IMG/VR virus record: IMGVR_UViG_3300046464_000188
Span: 16,391 to 80,390 of that record
Strand: one strand, 5' to 3'
DNA from: a virus
Length of the DNA: 64,000 bases
Made by a program: the position numbers and the translations under genes. The first letter of the stretch is position 1, and every line of letters starts with the position of its first letter. Below, piece by piece: positions 35,213 to 53,084 of this stretch. The notes below the pieces were generated by a model. The model saw only the letters and a list, made by a program, of their open reading frames with translations. It did no database searches and was not told where the DNA came from.

Positions 35213-35713
35213 TTGAAAAAAATAAAAGATACATACGATAATTTTTTTAAATGGGTTAAAGGTACTGAGTTAGTAGAACTAACTGACATAGATGTTTCCG
35301 AAGATCCTGTAAGACCTGAATTAACACTTGAATGGAGATTAGATGCCTCAAGAAAAATTTATGGTTTAAAATACGAGGATGATGTAGAAGCAATAGTTTG
35401 TGTAGCATACACTAATGAAGTACCTATTACAGTTAGAGAAATGGACTATATGAGTCAGGTAGCCTGCCAGGATGGCCAACTTGGTTCTATTGCAATAGCC
35501 TATACAGTATGGTCAAGAAAAAGAGGAGCAGGTAAAGAAATCATTAATAAGCTATATGAGTTTTTACGTAGTGAAAGATTAGCAACAAAAAGGTTGGTAA
35601 CATTATCTCCACTTACACCAATGGCAACACATTTCCATATTAAGAATGGTGCCAAACAAATCAGCATAAACGATACAACACAAAACTTTGAGTATAAATT
35701 GGTTGACAATTAA
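35213..35713 (+). CDS. GNAT-family acetyltransferase-like protein
   Basis: 166 aa starting with TTG 35213 after AAAGAG. The motif-A region (IAIAYTVWSRKRGAGKEIIN) has the strand-loop-helix with R-x-x-G-x-G/K that binds acetyl-CoA, and THFHIKNGAKQI matches the last GNAT strand-helix. The acceptor is unknown; phages use such enzymes to modify host RNA polymerase or toxins. The tmRNA promoter lies in its last codons. Confidence 0.75.
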   Translation: MKKIKDTYDNFFKWVKGTELVELTDIDVSEDPVRPELTLEWRLDASRKIYGLKYEDDVEAIVCVAYTNEVPITVREMDYMSQVACQDGQLGSIAIAYTVWSRKRGAGKEIINKLYEFLRSERLATKRLVTLSPLTPMATHFHIKNGAKQISINDTTQNFEYKLVDN

Positions 35714-35730
35714 ACTTTTACGTGTATAAA
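35703..35730 (+). promoter_or_regulatory. sigma-70 promoter for tmRNA, overlapping a late-type box
   Basis: TTGACA (35703-35708), a 16-base spacer, TATAAA (35725-35730). The same place reads TATAAATA (35725-35732), the T4 late octamer, so tmRNA may be made both early and late. Confidence 0.8.
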
Positions 35731-35734
35731 TATA

Positions 35735-36066
35735 CATTGTGGACGTTGAAGCGACTTGAAGATATTATGGACCTCGGGGCAGTACCGAGCACCTCCACCA
35801 TAAAAGCATTGGAAAGAAAATGATAGTATTTGATTTACTTGGCTATGTGATACTGGCAAATTTTATTGCTAGTGCTTTTATGATGGGGGTGAACTAGGAT
35901 CGACAGGTATTGTATGGAAGTGGAGTTTACCGGGTGATTACGTTATTGATCAAACTTTATAAACGCAGAAGATAATTTTGCTATAGCGGCCTAATTTAGG
36001 CACGTAGGGGTGGGAACTACCTGGCAACAGAAGTGCCACTGAATTCTTTAGAACTCAGTACTACAA
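35735..36066 (+). ncRNA. ssrA: transfer-messenger RNA, circularly permuted two-piece type
   Basis: The acceptor piece comes first: a T-arm (CTCGG-GGCAGTA-CCGAG) and CACCTCC-A-CCA ending at 35800. An intervening segment follows (35801-35884), flanked by AAAAGCA and TGCTTTT that extend the stem. Then the coding piece starts at 35885 with GGGGGTG, which pairs with CACCTCC, and GAACTAGGATCGACAGG, the conserved tmRNA 5' region. The tag frame ends ...AEDNFAIAA-stop (GCA 35965, TAA 35992-35994); its first codon is uncertain. The order is the alphaproteobacterial form. The outer limits are approximate. The Ala-Ala end is the ClpXP degron. Confidence 0.9.
35820..35897 (+). CDS. possible microprotein nested in the tmRNA intervening segment
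   Basis: ATG 35820 stands five bases behind GGAAAG. The 25-residue product MIVFDLLGYVILANFIASAF plus MMGVN is a neat membrane helix and ends with the TAG inside the coding-piece 5' region. It covers almost exactly the segment cut out between the two RNA pieces. It may be chance, but ribosome site, start and hydrophobic helix coincide. Confidence 0.35.
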   Translation: MIVFDLLGYVILANFIASAFMMGVN

Positions 36067-36090
36067 AAAGATAAATTTCTTATCTTTATA
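36067..36090 (+). terminator. weak intrinsic terminator after tmRNA
   Basis: AAAGATAA (36067-36074) pairs with TTATCTTT (36080-36087), with A-run before and T after. It lies in the 5' leader of the outer-membrane protein gene, so some read-through is likely. Confidence 0.6.
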
Positions 36091-36104: not shown

Positions 36105-36698
36105 ATGAAATATATAATGACAGCGGCACTTGTCGCTTTTACATTTTCTACTGCTAACGCAGAAGATTATAACAACACATCAGTAACTATGGCCGCAGAA
36201 GGTCCTGCTTATGGTGTGGAACTATCAACTAATGATACTACAAGAAAAGTAAGTGTCTACAATACGAATGGCGCATTAGATCTAGGAGTACAATTAGTTG
36301 ACAACGGTACCAATACAGATTTTAATGTATCTGTTGGTAAAACCATCGATAGTAATATCGGAACCGCAGAATCACCATTAGCTACAGTTTATGCATCTGC
36401 AGAAGCTGAGTATAATTGGGGCGATAGTTTTACTAAAAACGAAATGCATTTTACTCCTAAAATTGGAGCTAAAAAAGCTATTGGCAACCTAACACCATTT
36501 GGTGAATTAGGCTATGGGTTCAAATCAATTGAAGGTGATTATCTTGATATTGATAGAACTACACCGTTTGCTGAAATTGGAACATCAGTTAGCTTAACTG
36601 ATAACACTTCATTGAAAGCATCTGTAACACAGTCAATGAACACTGATTGGGAAAAAACTGATCGTGAACTTGGACTAAAACTGACAGTTCAGTTTTAA
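36105..36698 (+). CDS. outer-membrane beta-barrel-like protein
   Basis: 197 aa. Signal peptide MKYIMTAALVAFTFSTANA with cleavage before EDY. The mature part consists of alternating amphipathic strands (for example ATVYASAEAEYNW, FTPKIGAKKAIG, TPFGELGYGF) and ends in LGLKLTVQF, whose final Phe with alternating residues is the classical outer-membrane insertion signal. It is small, about eight strands (OmpA/OmpX/porin-like size). It sits between tmRNA and a terminator. A phage-made surface barrel could block receptors or change permeability. Confidence 0.82.
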   Translation: MKYIMTAALVAFTFSTANAEDYNNTSVTMAAEGPAYGVELSTNDTTRKVSVYNTNGALDLGVQLVDNGTNTDFNVSVGKTIDSNIGTAESPLATVYASAEAEYNWGDSFTKNEMHFTPKIGAKKAIGNLTPFGELGYGFKSIEGDYLDIDRTTPFAEIGTSVSLTDNTSLKASVTQSMNTDWEKTDRELGLKLTVQF

Positions 36699-38069: not shown

Positions 38070-38474
38070 ATGAAACTGCTAGAGCATAAGCATATCATAA
38101 TAAGAGCGGAAGTACTTGATCCGCCACGTGCAGAAGAATCAACAAGTGAACAAGTAAAAACTCTGATCAACGATATTGGAATGAAAATTATGATGGGGCC
38201 ATTTGCGGCCAGATCTACAATAGAAGGTACTCAAGGATTAACAGTAGCAACAATAATAGAAACTTCACACATAGTATTACATACCTGGGATGAAGTATCT
38301 CCTGCACTAATGCAATTTGATGTTTATACGTGCAGTCATCTTGATACTGATATTGTATTTAAATGGCTAGAACAATATAAGCCAGTTAAAATAGATTACA
38401 AATATATTGATAGAGAGTTTAAATTAGATTTTAAACGTAAAAAGTTTAAACCTTTTGCCAAGGAAATAGTTTAG
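38070..38474 (+). CDS. S-adenosylmethionine decarboxylase (SpeD)-like protein
   Basis: 134 aa. The core THE-like strand TVATIIETSHIVLHTWDE, QFDVYTCSHLDTD and a final KIDYKYIDREF match prokaryotic SpeD in order and size. Normal SpeD self-cleaves at Glu-Ser in SESHxxxHT, creating a pyruvoyl group; here the residue before Ser is Thr (ETSH), so processing may differ. It would provide decarboxylated SAM for polyamine synthesis, useful for DNA packing. It overlaps the minus-strand gene by 29 bases at its 3' end. The start is ATG 38070. Confidence 0.78.
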   Translation: MKLLEHKHIIIRAEVLDPPRAEESTSEQVKTLINDIGMKIMMGPFAARSTIEGTQGLTVATIIETSHIVLHTWDEVSPALMQFDVYTCSHLDTDIVFKWLEQYKPVKIDYKYIDREFKLDFKRKKFKPFAKEIV

Positions 38475-50169: not shown

Positions 50170-50830
50170 TCCTTGGTATATTCTTGGCGTTGAACCTAAC
50201 GCATCGTTAACTGCGATAAAAAAAGCATATAAAAGATTAGCAATTAGAATGCATCCAGATAAAGGCGGCTCTGTAGCTGATTGGTTACACGTAAGCCAAG
50301 CATATGAGAAAATTATCAAAGGTGATCTTGTTCCTGTTGTTAAAGGTAAAGATGTAAAGTATGTTGATATATACTTAACTATAGCACAACAGATAAAAGG
50401 TTTTCAAGGCTTTGTAGTAATAGATGAAGCAAAAGAATTATATTTAAAAGTAAAAATACCAGCAGGTGCGTTAAGAAATGACAAATTTAAGGTGATGCAC
50501 AACACCAAAAAATATATTATAAATATTAAAGAAAAAGCAGATAAAGTCTTTACAAGACAGGGAAATAATGTTATAGTATACAAGAAATTAGATATAGTAG
50601 ACATAATGAAACAAAAACCATTTGTCATTATATCTCCTTTAGGTGAATATATCGAAGTTCAAATTCCACCAAAAACAGATTCTGGAAGTATAATTGTTGT
50701 CAAAGAACAAGGACTATATAACAGACGAACAAAGAAAAGAGGAAACTTGAGAATTAATGTAAAGGTAAATATTCCTACAGTGAACAAAGATAATGTTAAT
50801 GAAATTATTAAAAGATTAAAAGATGACTGA
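50153..50830 (+). CDS. DnaJ-like co-chaperone
   Basis: 225 aa. J domain at residues 5-60 with the HPD triad (MHPDKGG, residues 34-36) after AIKKAYKRLAI. There is no Gly/Phe or zinc domain; instead the C-terminal 140 residues (for example LYLKVKIPAGALRNDKFKV and YIEVQIPPKTDSGSIIVVKE) resemble the DnaJ/CbpA C-terminal peptide-binding domains. It would stimulate host DnaK for folding phage proteins or deliver clients. It ends eight bases into clpA, so chaperone and unfoldase are made together. Confidence 0.88.
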   Translation: MKKLNNPWYILGVEPNASLTAIKKAYKRLAIRMHPDKGGSVADWLHVSQAYEKIIKGDLVPVVKGKDVKYVDIYLTIAQQIKGFQGFVVIDEAKELYLKVKIPAGALRNDKFKVMHNTKKYIINIKEKADKVFTRQGNNVIVYKKLDIVDIMKQKPFVIISPLGEYIEVQIPPKTDSGSIIVVKEQGLYNRRTKKRGNLRINVKVNIPTVNKDNVNEIIKRLKDD

Positions 50831-53084
50831 TATAGAAAGAATTGTTATAACTGCTATTAACCTAGCAAAGAAATTTAGACACGAGTACGTTACTATTGAA
50901 CATTTAGCGGCTGTAATACTTGATGACCCAGAAGTACAGGCTATGTGCTACGAAGTTCAAGCAGATCACGAACAGTTACAAATTTCATTAGTAAACTATT
51001 TAGAACACGAATGTAAAGAATTAATTAAAAGTAAAAAAGAAGAACCTAATCCATTTAAGACTCAAATGTTAGAAAGAGTTTTTAACAGAGCATTAACTCA
51101 AGCATTGTTCCAAGGTAAAAAAGCAATAAACCAGTTAGATCTAGTATTAAGTATACTAGGTGAAGAACATAGTGTTGCCGCAACATATGCAGACCAATGT
51201 GGACTTAATAAAAATAAAGTTATGGCTTGGATGCAAGATACAGCTCAAGCACAAATTGATACAATATTTACAGCCATGCCTCCAGGAATGGATCCTTATG
51301 GACAACAAGGACCACAAACTCCACTTGCAGTATTAGGTCAATTTTGTAATAACTTAAATGAAGCAAGTCAAGACTTTGATGATGTAATTGGACGTAGAGA
51401 AGTTTTAAGAGACTTGGTTCAAACTGTAGCACGTAAGAAAAAATCAAATGCAATATTAACAGGTGGTAGTGGAGTAGGTAAAACAGCTATTGTTCAAGGA
51501 TTAGCAAAATTAATCGTAGAAGGTAAAGTTCCAGAAGTTATAAAAGGTAAAACAGTATGGGAACTGGATATGACGAAACTAGTAGCTGGTACAAAATACA
51601 GAGGTGACTTTGAAGAACGTATGAAGCAACTAGGTGAAGCATTACAAAAGCAACCAGACATTATTTTATTCATAGATGAAATACATCAAATTATTGGAGC
51701 AGGTAGTACCAACGCATCAATGGATGCAGGTAATATGTTAAAGCCAGCATTAGCAAGTGGTAAACTAAAAGTTATTGGTGCTACAACTGATGAAGAATAT
51801 AGAAGAGTATTTGAAAAAGAAACAGCACTAGCACGTAGATTTACAAAAGTATCTGTAGACGAACCTAGTGTAAAAGATGCTAAAGAAGTATTAACAAATA
51901 CTATAGTTTCTTATGAAGCATATCATGATGTAGAAATTACAGATGAGGCTTGTGAACTAGCAGTTGATTTAAGCCATCAGTATATGTTTAATAAAAAATT
52001 ACCAGATAAAGCATTTGACATTGTTGATAGAGCCTGTGCATATAATAAAATATTACCAGTAAAAGATCGAGTAAAGATTATTGGTATAGATGAAATTAGA
52101 GCAGAAGTTTCTAAACTAACTACAATACCTGAAGAACATTTAGGACTTACAAAAGATAAAGAAATTTCTAAAAAGCATAGTGAAGTAAGAGCATTTTTAG
52201 AAAAAACTGTATTTGGACAACAAGCGGCAATTGATCGTGTAGTTGATAGTATTACAGTTAGTATGGCAGGATTAAAAGATCCTGTTAAACCTATTGCAAG
52301 TTATTTGTTTAGTGGACCAACTGGTGTTGGTAAAACAGAATTAGCAAAAAGATTATCACAAGCAATGACTATGAAACTAGTACGTTATGATATGGCAGAA
52401 TATCAAGAACGTCATACAGTATCAAAACTTATTGGATCACCTCCTGGATATGTAGGGTTTGGAGACGGGAAAGCAGGTGATGGTTTACTAATTACACAAC
52501 TAGAAGATAATCCAAATTGTGTATTATTATTAGACGAAGTAGAAAAAGCACACCCAGACTTAATGAGTGTATTGTTAAGTTTATTAGACGAAGGTACAAT
52601 TACAAGTAGTACTGGTAAAATGGTAAATGCAAAAAATGCAATAATTATTATGACCAGTAACTTAGGTGCCAGAGATGCGTCAATTAAAAGTATAGGTTTC
52701 AATGAAGAAACTTATAATCACAAAGCCGTAGATGAAGCAATAAACAATTACTTCTCGCCTGAATTTCGTAATAGGCTTGATGGTATAGTAAAATTTAATT
52801 CATTATCACGTGAGAACATGAATAGTATTGTTATCAAGTTTTTAAATGAATTAGAAAGTTATGTAGCTCAAAGAAATATAGATATTTCTTGGGGTCCTGC
52901 ATTACAAACTATGCTAGAAGATAAAGGGTATGATCCTCAAATGGGAGCAAGACCTTTAGCAAGACTAATTAACGAAAAAGTAAAACTTCCATTAGCTAAA
53001 TACTTACTAGATATAGATAGTAAGAAAAAGCTCAACTTAAAAGTTGAATGGAAAAAGGACGAGTTAGTGATTAATGGAAAATAA
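50823..53084 (+). CDS. clpA: ATP-dependent Clp protease ATPase subunit ClpA
   Basis: 753 aa (E. coli ClpA 758). N domain 1-145; D1 Walker A GGSGVGKT (214-221) and Walker B ILFIDEIH; D2 Walker A GPTGVGKT (498-505), pore loop GYVGF (about 542-546), Walker B LLLDEVEKAHPD. The long ClpB middle domain is absent, and a ClpP-docking IGF loop (KSIGFNE, 624-626) is present, so this is ClpA and not ClpB. With ClpS (27961) and ClpP (22663) it makes a full N-end-rule protease. It is coupled to the J-domain gene by an eight-base overlap. Confidence 0.94.
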   Translation: MTDIERIVITAINLAKKFRHEYVTIEHLAAVILDDPEVQAMCYEVQADHEQLQISLVNYLEHECKELIKSKKEEPNPFKTQMLERVFNRALTQALFQGKKAINQLDLVLSILGEEHSVAATYADQCGLNKNKVMAWMQDTAQAQIDTIFTAMPPGMDPYGQQGPQTPLAVLGQFCNNLNEASQDFDDVIGRREVLRDLVQTVARKKKSNAILTGGSGVGKTAIVQGLAKLIVEGKVPEVIKGKTVWELDMTKLVAGTKYRGDFEERMKQLGEALQKQPDIILFIDEIHQIIGAGSTNASMDAGNMLKPALASGKLKVIGATTDEEYRRVFEKETALARRFTKVSVDEPSVKDAKEVLTNTIVSYEAYHDVEITDEACELAVDLSHQYMFNKKLPDKAFDIVDRACAYNKILPVKDRVKIIGIDEIRAEVSKLTTIPEEHLGLTKDKEISKKHSEVRAFLEKTVFGQQAAIDRVVDSITVSMAGLKDPVKPIASYLFSGPTGVGKTELAKRLSQAMTMKLVRYDMAEYQERHTVSKLIGSPPGYVGFGDGKAGDGLLITQLEDNPNCVLLLDEVEKAHPDLMSVLLSLLDEGTITSSTGKMVNAKNAIIIMTSNLGARDASIKSIGFNEETYNHKAVDEAINNYFSPEFRNRLDGIVKFNSLSRENMNSIVIKFLNELESYVAQRNIDISWGPALQTMLEDKGYDPQMGARPLARLINEKVKLPLAKYLLDIDSKKKLNLKVEWKKDELVINGK

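Follow-up and report, generated by a model that had tools for sequence, protein, structure and literature searches.

Permuted tmRNAs are known in Alphaproteobacteria as well as in Beta- and Gammaproteobacteria and cyanobacteria. In marine phages, they were published together with Methylophilales phage Melnitz (MZ577097), which infects an OM43 methylotroph; that report counts 53 two-piece tmRNAs among 18,146 phage genomes (PMC9004378), so that a permuted tmRNA in a marine phage is not in itself new. The Melnitz tmRNA, which is of the alpha type, is the closest annotated isolate tmRNA to the one described here, and its gene is likewise a marine phage permuted ssrA with an open reading frame (ORF) in the spacer between the two pieces. 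The Melnitz spacer of 142 nt carries an ORF led by a Shine-Dalgarno (SD) sequence (MFKWLSKTRLVVITRDYFRERNRKADAKIPKYLSG..., family F4 of the families discussed below), whereas its tag (ANDNYVPVDYALAA) and its spacer family differ from those of the present locus. The Melnitz record annotates only “SsrA” over this ORF, and the accessible text of the paper deals with the tmRNA and with a glutamine riboswitch but does not mention the spacer ORF (PMC9004378). In tmRNA genes with group I introns and homing endonucleases, a protein gene likewise lies in RNA that is removed from the mature product, but the insert is a self-splicing intron in the T-loop, whereas the present locus has a processing spacer, small genes and no sign of an endonuclease (PMC11915505). 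Foreign spacer content is also found in permuted tmRNAs whose spacer contains a tRNA-Ala gene or a repeat (PMC11915505); these are single cases of an RNA gene or a repeat, whereas the phage spacers appear to hold a recurrent, exchangeable protein-coding cassette.

The locus lies in a virus record of 80,390 bases that carries NrdAB, PhoH, DNA ligases and a tail-fibre-like gene, within the 64,000-nucleotide stretch that was analysed as a whole (hereafter, the window). ARAGORN predicted a permuted tmRNA at 35708-36085 (+) with the tag AEDNFAIAA, and two Rfam models gave full-length matches above their cut-offs: alpha_tmRNA RF01849 (1-355, 111.2 bits, E = 1.7e-29, cut-off 50) and tmRNA_permuted RF04321 (1-213, 98.3 bits, cut-off 47). 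A preliminary description, made from the letters of the sequence, had proposed a permuted tmRNA with this tag and the order acceptor piece, spacer and coding piece, and had named the alphaproteobacterial covariance model as a check; all of this was borne out. Judged by these models, the locus at about 35735-36066 is a phage-borne permuted two-piece tmRNA of the alphaproteobacterial type. As in the permuted tmRNAs of Alphaproteobacteria (RF01849, RF04321), all segments are present, along with G3.U70, an alpha-type T-loop, a resume site and a hydrophobic tag end, in the following arrangement.

35739-35800, + strand: acceptor piece (start of the RF04321 match at 35739, ARAGORN, sequence; 5′ end approximate)
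35801-35884, + strand: intervening segment (spacer), predicted to be removed from the mature tmRNA (sequence boundaries, fold)
35820-35897, + strand: candidate micro-gene in the spacer, MIVFDLLGYVILANFIASAFMMGVN and a stop, 25 residues, hydrophobic (ORF, SD, shuffle test)
35885-36066, + strand: coding piece, with the 5′ half of the tRNA-like domain, resume site, tag and 3′ part (ARAGORN, Rfam; 3′ end approximate)
35965-35994, + strand: tag reading frame, AEDNFAIAA and a stop (ARAGORN)
36067-36085, + strand: A+T-rich hairpin 3′ of the tmRNA, AAGATAA-attt-cTTATCT (sequence; conserved in the relative L127; ARAGORN end at 36085)

The acceptor piece, located 5′ of the coding piece, comprises a T-arm (CTCGG-GGCAGTA-CCGAG), the acceptor 3′ strand CACCTCC and an encoded CCA ending at 35800, and the coding piece begins with GGGGGTG at 35885; the tag closes with a hydrophobic residue and AA. 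The pairing of these two strands proposed earlier holds, as GGGGGUG/CACCUCC with the G3.U70 wobble. In L127, a close relative represented by a 221-kb contig, the acceptor stem reads GGGCCUG/CAGGUCC, so that two compensated pair swaps, with G3.U70 kept, support pairing of the tmRNA halves; the stem is compensated despite a wholly different spacer between them. In the predicted precursor fold, the acceptor stem is extended by stacking of the 8-nt arms at the spacer termini (TAAAAGCA / TGCTTTTA; z-score of the fold −2.8 against shuffles). The T-arm is uninterrupted, in contrast to that of a tmRNA with a group I intron, and the Rfam scan returned no intron family at the locus. The hairpin at 36067-36085 is a possible terminator or processing element. 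An SmpB gene was not detected in nine phage records, including that of the window (a fragment) and its 221-kb relative; host SmpB would therefore be needed.

Several neighbouring genes were also recorded. The gene directly 3′ of the tmRNA (36105-36698) has 12 nt (AACGCAGAAGAT) in common with the resume site; this identity with its signal peptide was dismissed as probably a coincidence, since both stretches encode Ala-Glu-Asp. Just downstream of the tmRNA region lies an S-adenosylmethionine decarboxylase-like gene (38070-38474, phrog_3125), and several radical SAM genes are found within the window. A 753-aa protein (50823-53084) is near phrog_4871, “ATP-dependent protease” (762 bits), and is possibly a Clp-like unfoldase.

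Other parts of the preliminary description stand in modified form. The T-loop does read GGCAGTA, but it had been called aberrant, and it agrees with the alpha_tmRNA consensus GGCgGUA and is thus normal for the alpha type. The permuted form had been taken to point to the host lineage; the alpha type stands, but the host assignment is weak, because Melnitz has an alpha-type tmRNA and infects OM43, so that tmRNA type does not fix the host. A host rescue RNA may plausibly have been captured in the distant past, but a recent capture is unsupported, since no close host copy was found: compared with 190 alphaproteobacterial genomes, the coding piece gave matches only to conserved words of 21-32 nt. 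Most of the tmRNA, including the tag, is common to the phage relative L127. Comparison with host tags showed that the window tag has only nine residues and begins AED, whereas those of most sampled hosts begin AND. The AEDNF tag was also considered as a lineage marker and rejected, because it occurs on different tmRNAs (L419-L421, L423).

Neither the most interesting feature, a spacer with coding content that can be exchanged, nor the 25-codon ORF figured in that description. Permuted tmRNAs were gathered from IMG/VR using alpha-type consensus patterns, in one scan without length selection, two for long spacers and two aimed at relatives, yielding at least 215 distinct phage spacers; because two scans were built for long spacers, family counts are not frequencies. 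In the length-unselected sample, the median spacer was 57.5 nt, and 19 of 72 among the matches listed were at least 100 nt; spacers of 60-270 nt with small ORFs are frequent in phages. The alphaproteobacterial hosts differ. RF04321 matched in 313 of 337 genomes, but its spans imply a spacer of at least 100 nt in only about 4 of the roughly 150 genomes listed, nearly all others being short, and the host spacers that were fetched and readable are, with few exceptions, 7-36 nt long and lack ORFs. A rare host case is the chromosomal tmRNA of a Rhodobiaceae (alphaproteobacterial) MAG (L442, 6368-6570; L639), whose phage-like spacer of 184 nt contains an SD-led ORF for a hydrophobic 49-aa peptide (MQKIKDIIKIAIGLEVIVILAFLVVLML...). 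Rickettsia spacers are also long (163-168 nt; L455, L500), and that of L455 reads SPRRRGSR, reminiscent of a Rickettsia palindromic element. A pattern scan of genome contigs gave mostly chance matches, with five real permuted tmRNAs by a strict pattern.

The spacer ORFs encode 25-75 aa and group into families. When each nucleotide cluster was represented by a single spacer, 14 of 92 clusters had an ATG ORF that was preceded by a strict SD and had at least 30 codons within the spacer, against 0.67 expected from dinucleotide shuffles and a maximum of 3 in 100 shuffles. An SD-led ORF of at least 16 codons was absent from 71 of the 92 clusters, and many long spacers lack one, indicating that coding is common and not universal. 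With stem-arm codons masked, pN/pS in the SD-led families ranged from 0.17 to 0.58 (F1, 42 sequences, 0.33; F2, 0.50; F3, 0.29; F5, 0.17; F8, 0.40; sums over non-independent pairs), whereas wrong-frame controls over the same DNA gave mostly about 0.7-2.6 where changes sufficed to judge, a few controls with very few changes being uninformative, including one two-sequence wrong frame at 0. In F1, variation at codon positions 1, 2 and 3 was 0.150, 0.064 and 0.231, highest at the third and lowest at the second. Both pN/pS and codon periodicity thus indicate purifying selection on the spacer ORFs as a class, which are almost certainly protein-coding genes. Conservation could instead stem from a structured or regulatory RNA within the spacer, and it is true that spacer arms commonly pair and that the window precursor folds more stably than its shuffles; however, the excess of third- over second-position changes in F1, the restriction of low pN/pS mainly to the SD-led frame and the many families that stay open up to the junction make this explanation highly improbable. 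Among 86 ORFs, the stop is a UGA one base before the coding piece in 48, a UAG at +13 in 11 and at +42 in 10, and these three main sites are set by the conserved junction. Some F1 spacers (e.g., L032 and L231) have a second mini-ORF (..QDEEPSSTRGK) behind an AAAGGAG directly after the CCA; it extends over the F1 start in a different frame, and its component is without clear purifying selection.

The predicted peptides of F1, F6, F7, F8 and the window are strongly hydrophobic; others are not. Pfam and PHROG scans of ten sample spacer proteins gave no significant match, endonucleases included, and no homologs of F1, F3 or F8 were found in isolates among 50,697 phage records. A membrane role, or one in takeover or against competitors, is a guess.

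Evidence for exchange comes from pairs in which the tmRNA pieces are 95-100% identical, yet the spacers are unrelated. In L359 and L389, the flanks match at 100/100 and 198/200 positions upstream and at 230/230 and 270/270 downstream, i.e., they are identical over about 800 bases save two differences, but they enclose unrelated spacers of 115 and 120 nt with ORFs of families F3 and F2, respectively, each with its own pairing arms. The pattern of matching flanks and unrelated spacers is repeated in L088 and L356; although metagenome contigs can be chimeric, the exchanged spacers are found repeatedly, in several contigs that are independent of one another. Family F8 occurs within the spacer in L062 and L124, but L055 and L128 carry it as a free-standing gene shortly after the tmRNA; it is also found in many further contigs in which no tmRNA was detected. 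Among the best 80 IMG/VR homologs of F1 (MKNPLV..WSICAD..), about 70 lie inside a tmRNA spacer, whereas in L621 and L622 the F1 ORF stands immediately upstream of the acceptor piece, outside the spacer, which may represent an intermediate stage in the movement of the gene. The exact spacer swaps, free-standing F8 and F1 beside the tmRNA together suggest that the spacer acts as a slot for incoming small genes, and recombination between the conserved tmRNA halves would be the route of exchange. In L555, L576 and L577, the F1 ORF is followed by a tmRNA coding piece with no acceptor piece with CCA visible upstream; these are possibly split or decayed tmRNAs with the acceptor piece elsewhere.

The exact replacement of cassettes at a fixed site would also suit remnants of mobile or selfish elements, comparable to the ORFs of group I introns, which occur in the tmRNA T-loop, some with homing endonuclease genes (PMC11915505). 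We consider such an origin very unlikely, because the spacer is general to permuted tmRNAs, those of hosts included, the ORFs are small and the ten sampled proteins have no significant match in Pfam or PHROG, and F8 stands in relatives as an ordinary gene beside the tmRNA. The reading that we favour, and hold to be quite probable from the comparative data, is a phage permuted tmRNA whose spacer doubles as a slot for exchangeable small protein genes.

The window's own spacer follows the same layout as the conserved ORF families. Its ORF of 25 codons starts behind TTGGAAAGAAA, with a GGA-type SD (TTGGAAAGAAAATG) upstream, remains open through the junction between spacer and coding piece and ends at a TAG that occupies nt 11-13 of the coding piece, within conserved sequence. 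The spacer is identical in L123 and L125, and L127 has an unrelated 68-nt segment without an ORF in its place. When DNA capable of encoding VFDLLGYVI was searched for by exact match, only L123 and L125 were found, both identical to the window, so that the known copies leave zero substitutions with which to score purifying selection. It may be that this is an ordinary phage permuted tmRNA with a mere processing hairpin as spacer and a 25-codon ORF that arose by chance: without an SD condition, 6% of shuffled sequences contain an ATG-started ORF as long as this one (P = 0.06), L127 manages without an ORF, and the stem arm and coding piece dictate the last nine residues. This is an alternative to be taken seriously, although we doubt it; only 0.2% of shuffles retain such an ORF once an upstream GGA is required (P = 0.002, a post hoc value, since the GGA condition was picked after the sequence was seen), the start context resembles that of other window genes, with a similar SD core in 26 of 30, and the arrangement is shared with spacer ORFs on which purifying selection acts elsewhere. 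Translation of the window ORF is plausible on these grounds, and we lean towards it.

Under the slot reading, a single transcript would fold so that the acceptor stem runs on into the spacer hairpin, and the spacer would be cut out by host tRNA-processing enzymes. The two remaining pieces would be charged with alanine through G3.U70 and, with host SmpB, would rescue stalled ribosomes and add AEDNFAIAA. Each cassette would bring its own pair of complementary stem arms, together with a ribosome-binding site and an ORF usually reaching the coding-piece junction, with the conserved tmRNA halves possibly serving as homology arms for exchange; that of the window would encode the 25-residue hydrophobic peptide. 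In the +13 and +42 frames, including that of the window, excision would remove the stop codon, so that normal termination would be available only from the uncut transcript and the cut transcript would be a non-stop message. This loss could be either regulation or an unavoidable by-product. The arfA mRNA, a message that lacks a stop codon and is repressed by trans-translation (PMC10107115), resembles such a severed ORF in its working alone; it has no homology to the window ORF, and for the latter the link to tmRNA processing is our own supposition. A more elaborate version would tie the slot to ribosome rescue: the uncut precursor would yield a terminated micro-protein, whereas cutting at the start of the coding piece would remove the stop, or leave it one base from the end, and make the message a target of the tmRNA that it itself releases, so that micro-protein synthesis would occur chiefly under conditions that limit tmRNA maturation or rescue, in a slot diversified by recombination between the halves. 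We regard this version as speculative and rather unlikely.

In full-text searches of literature mostly outside subscription journals, no description of protein-coding genes within the spacer of a tmRNA came up, and a swappable protein gene in this position seems to be undescribed so far. Many such marine phages, and probably this one, hold a tiny swappable protein gene in the spacer of their tmRNA; such small phage proteins are missed because tmRNA annotation masks the spacer region. A structured RNA gene can act as a docking site for coding cassettes, with a discarded processing spacer hosting micro-genes under selection. This arrangement provides a testable link between ribosome rescue and phage peptide expression, for which the cultured phage Melnitz is a suitable subject.
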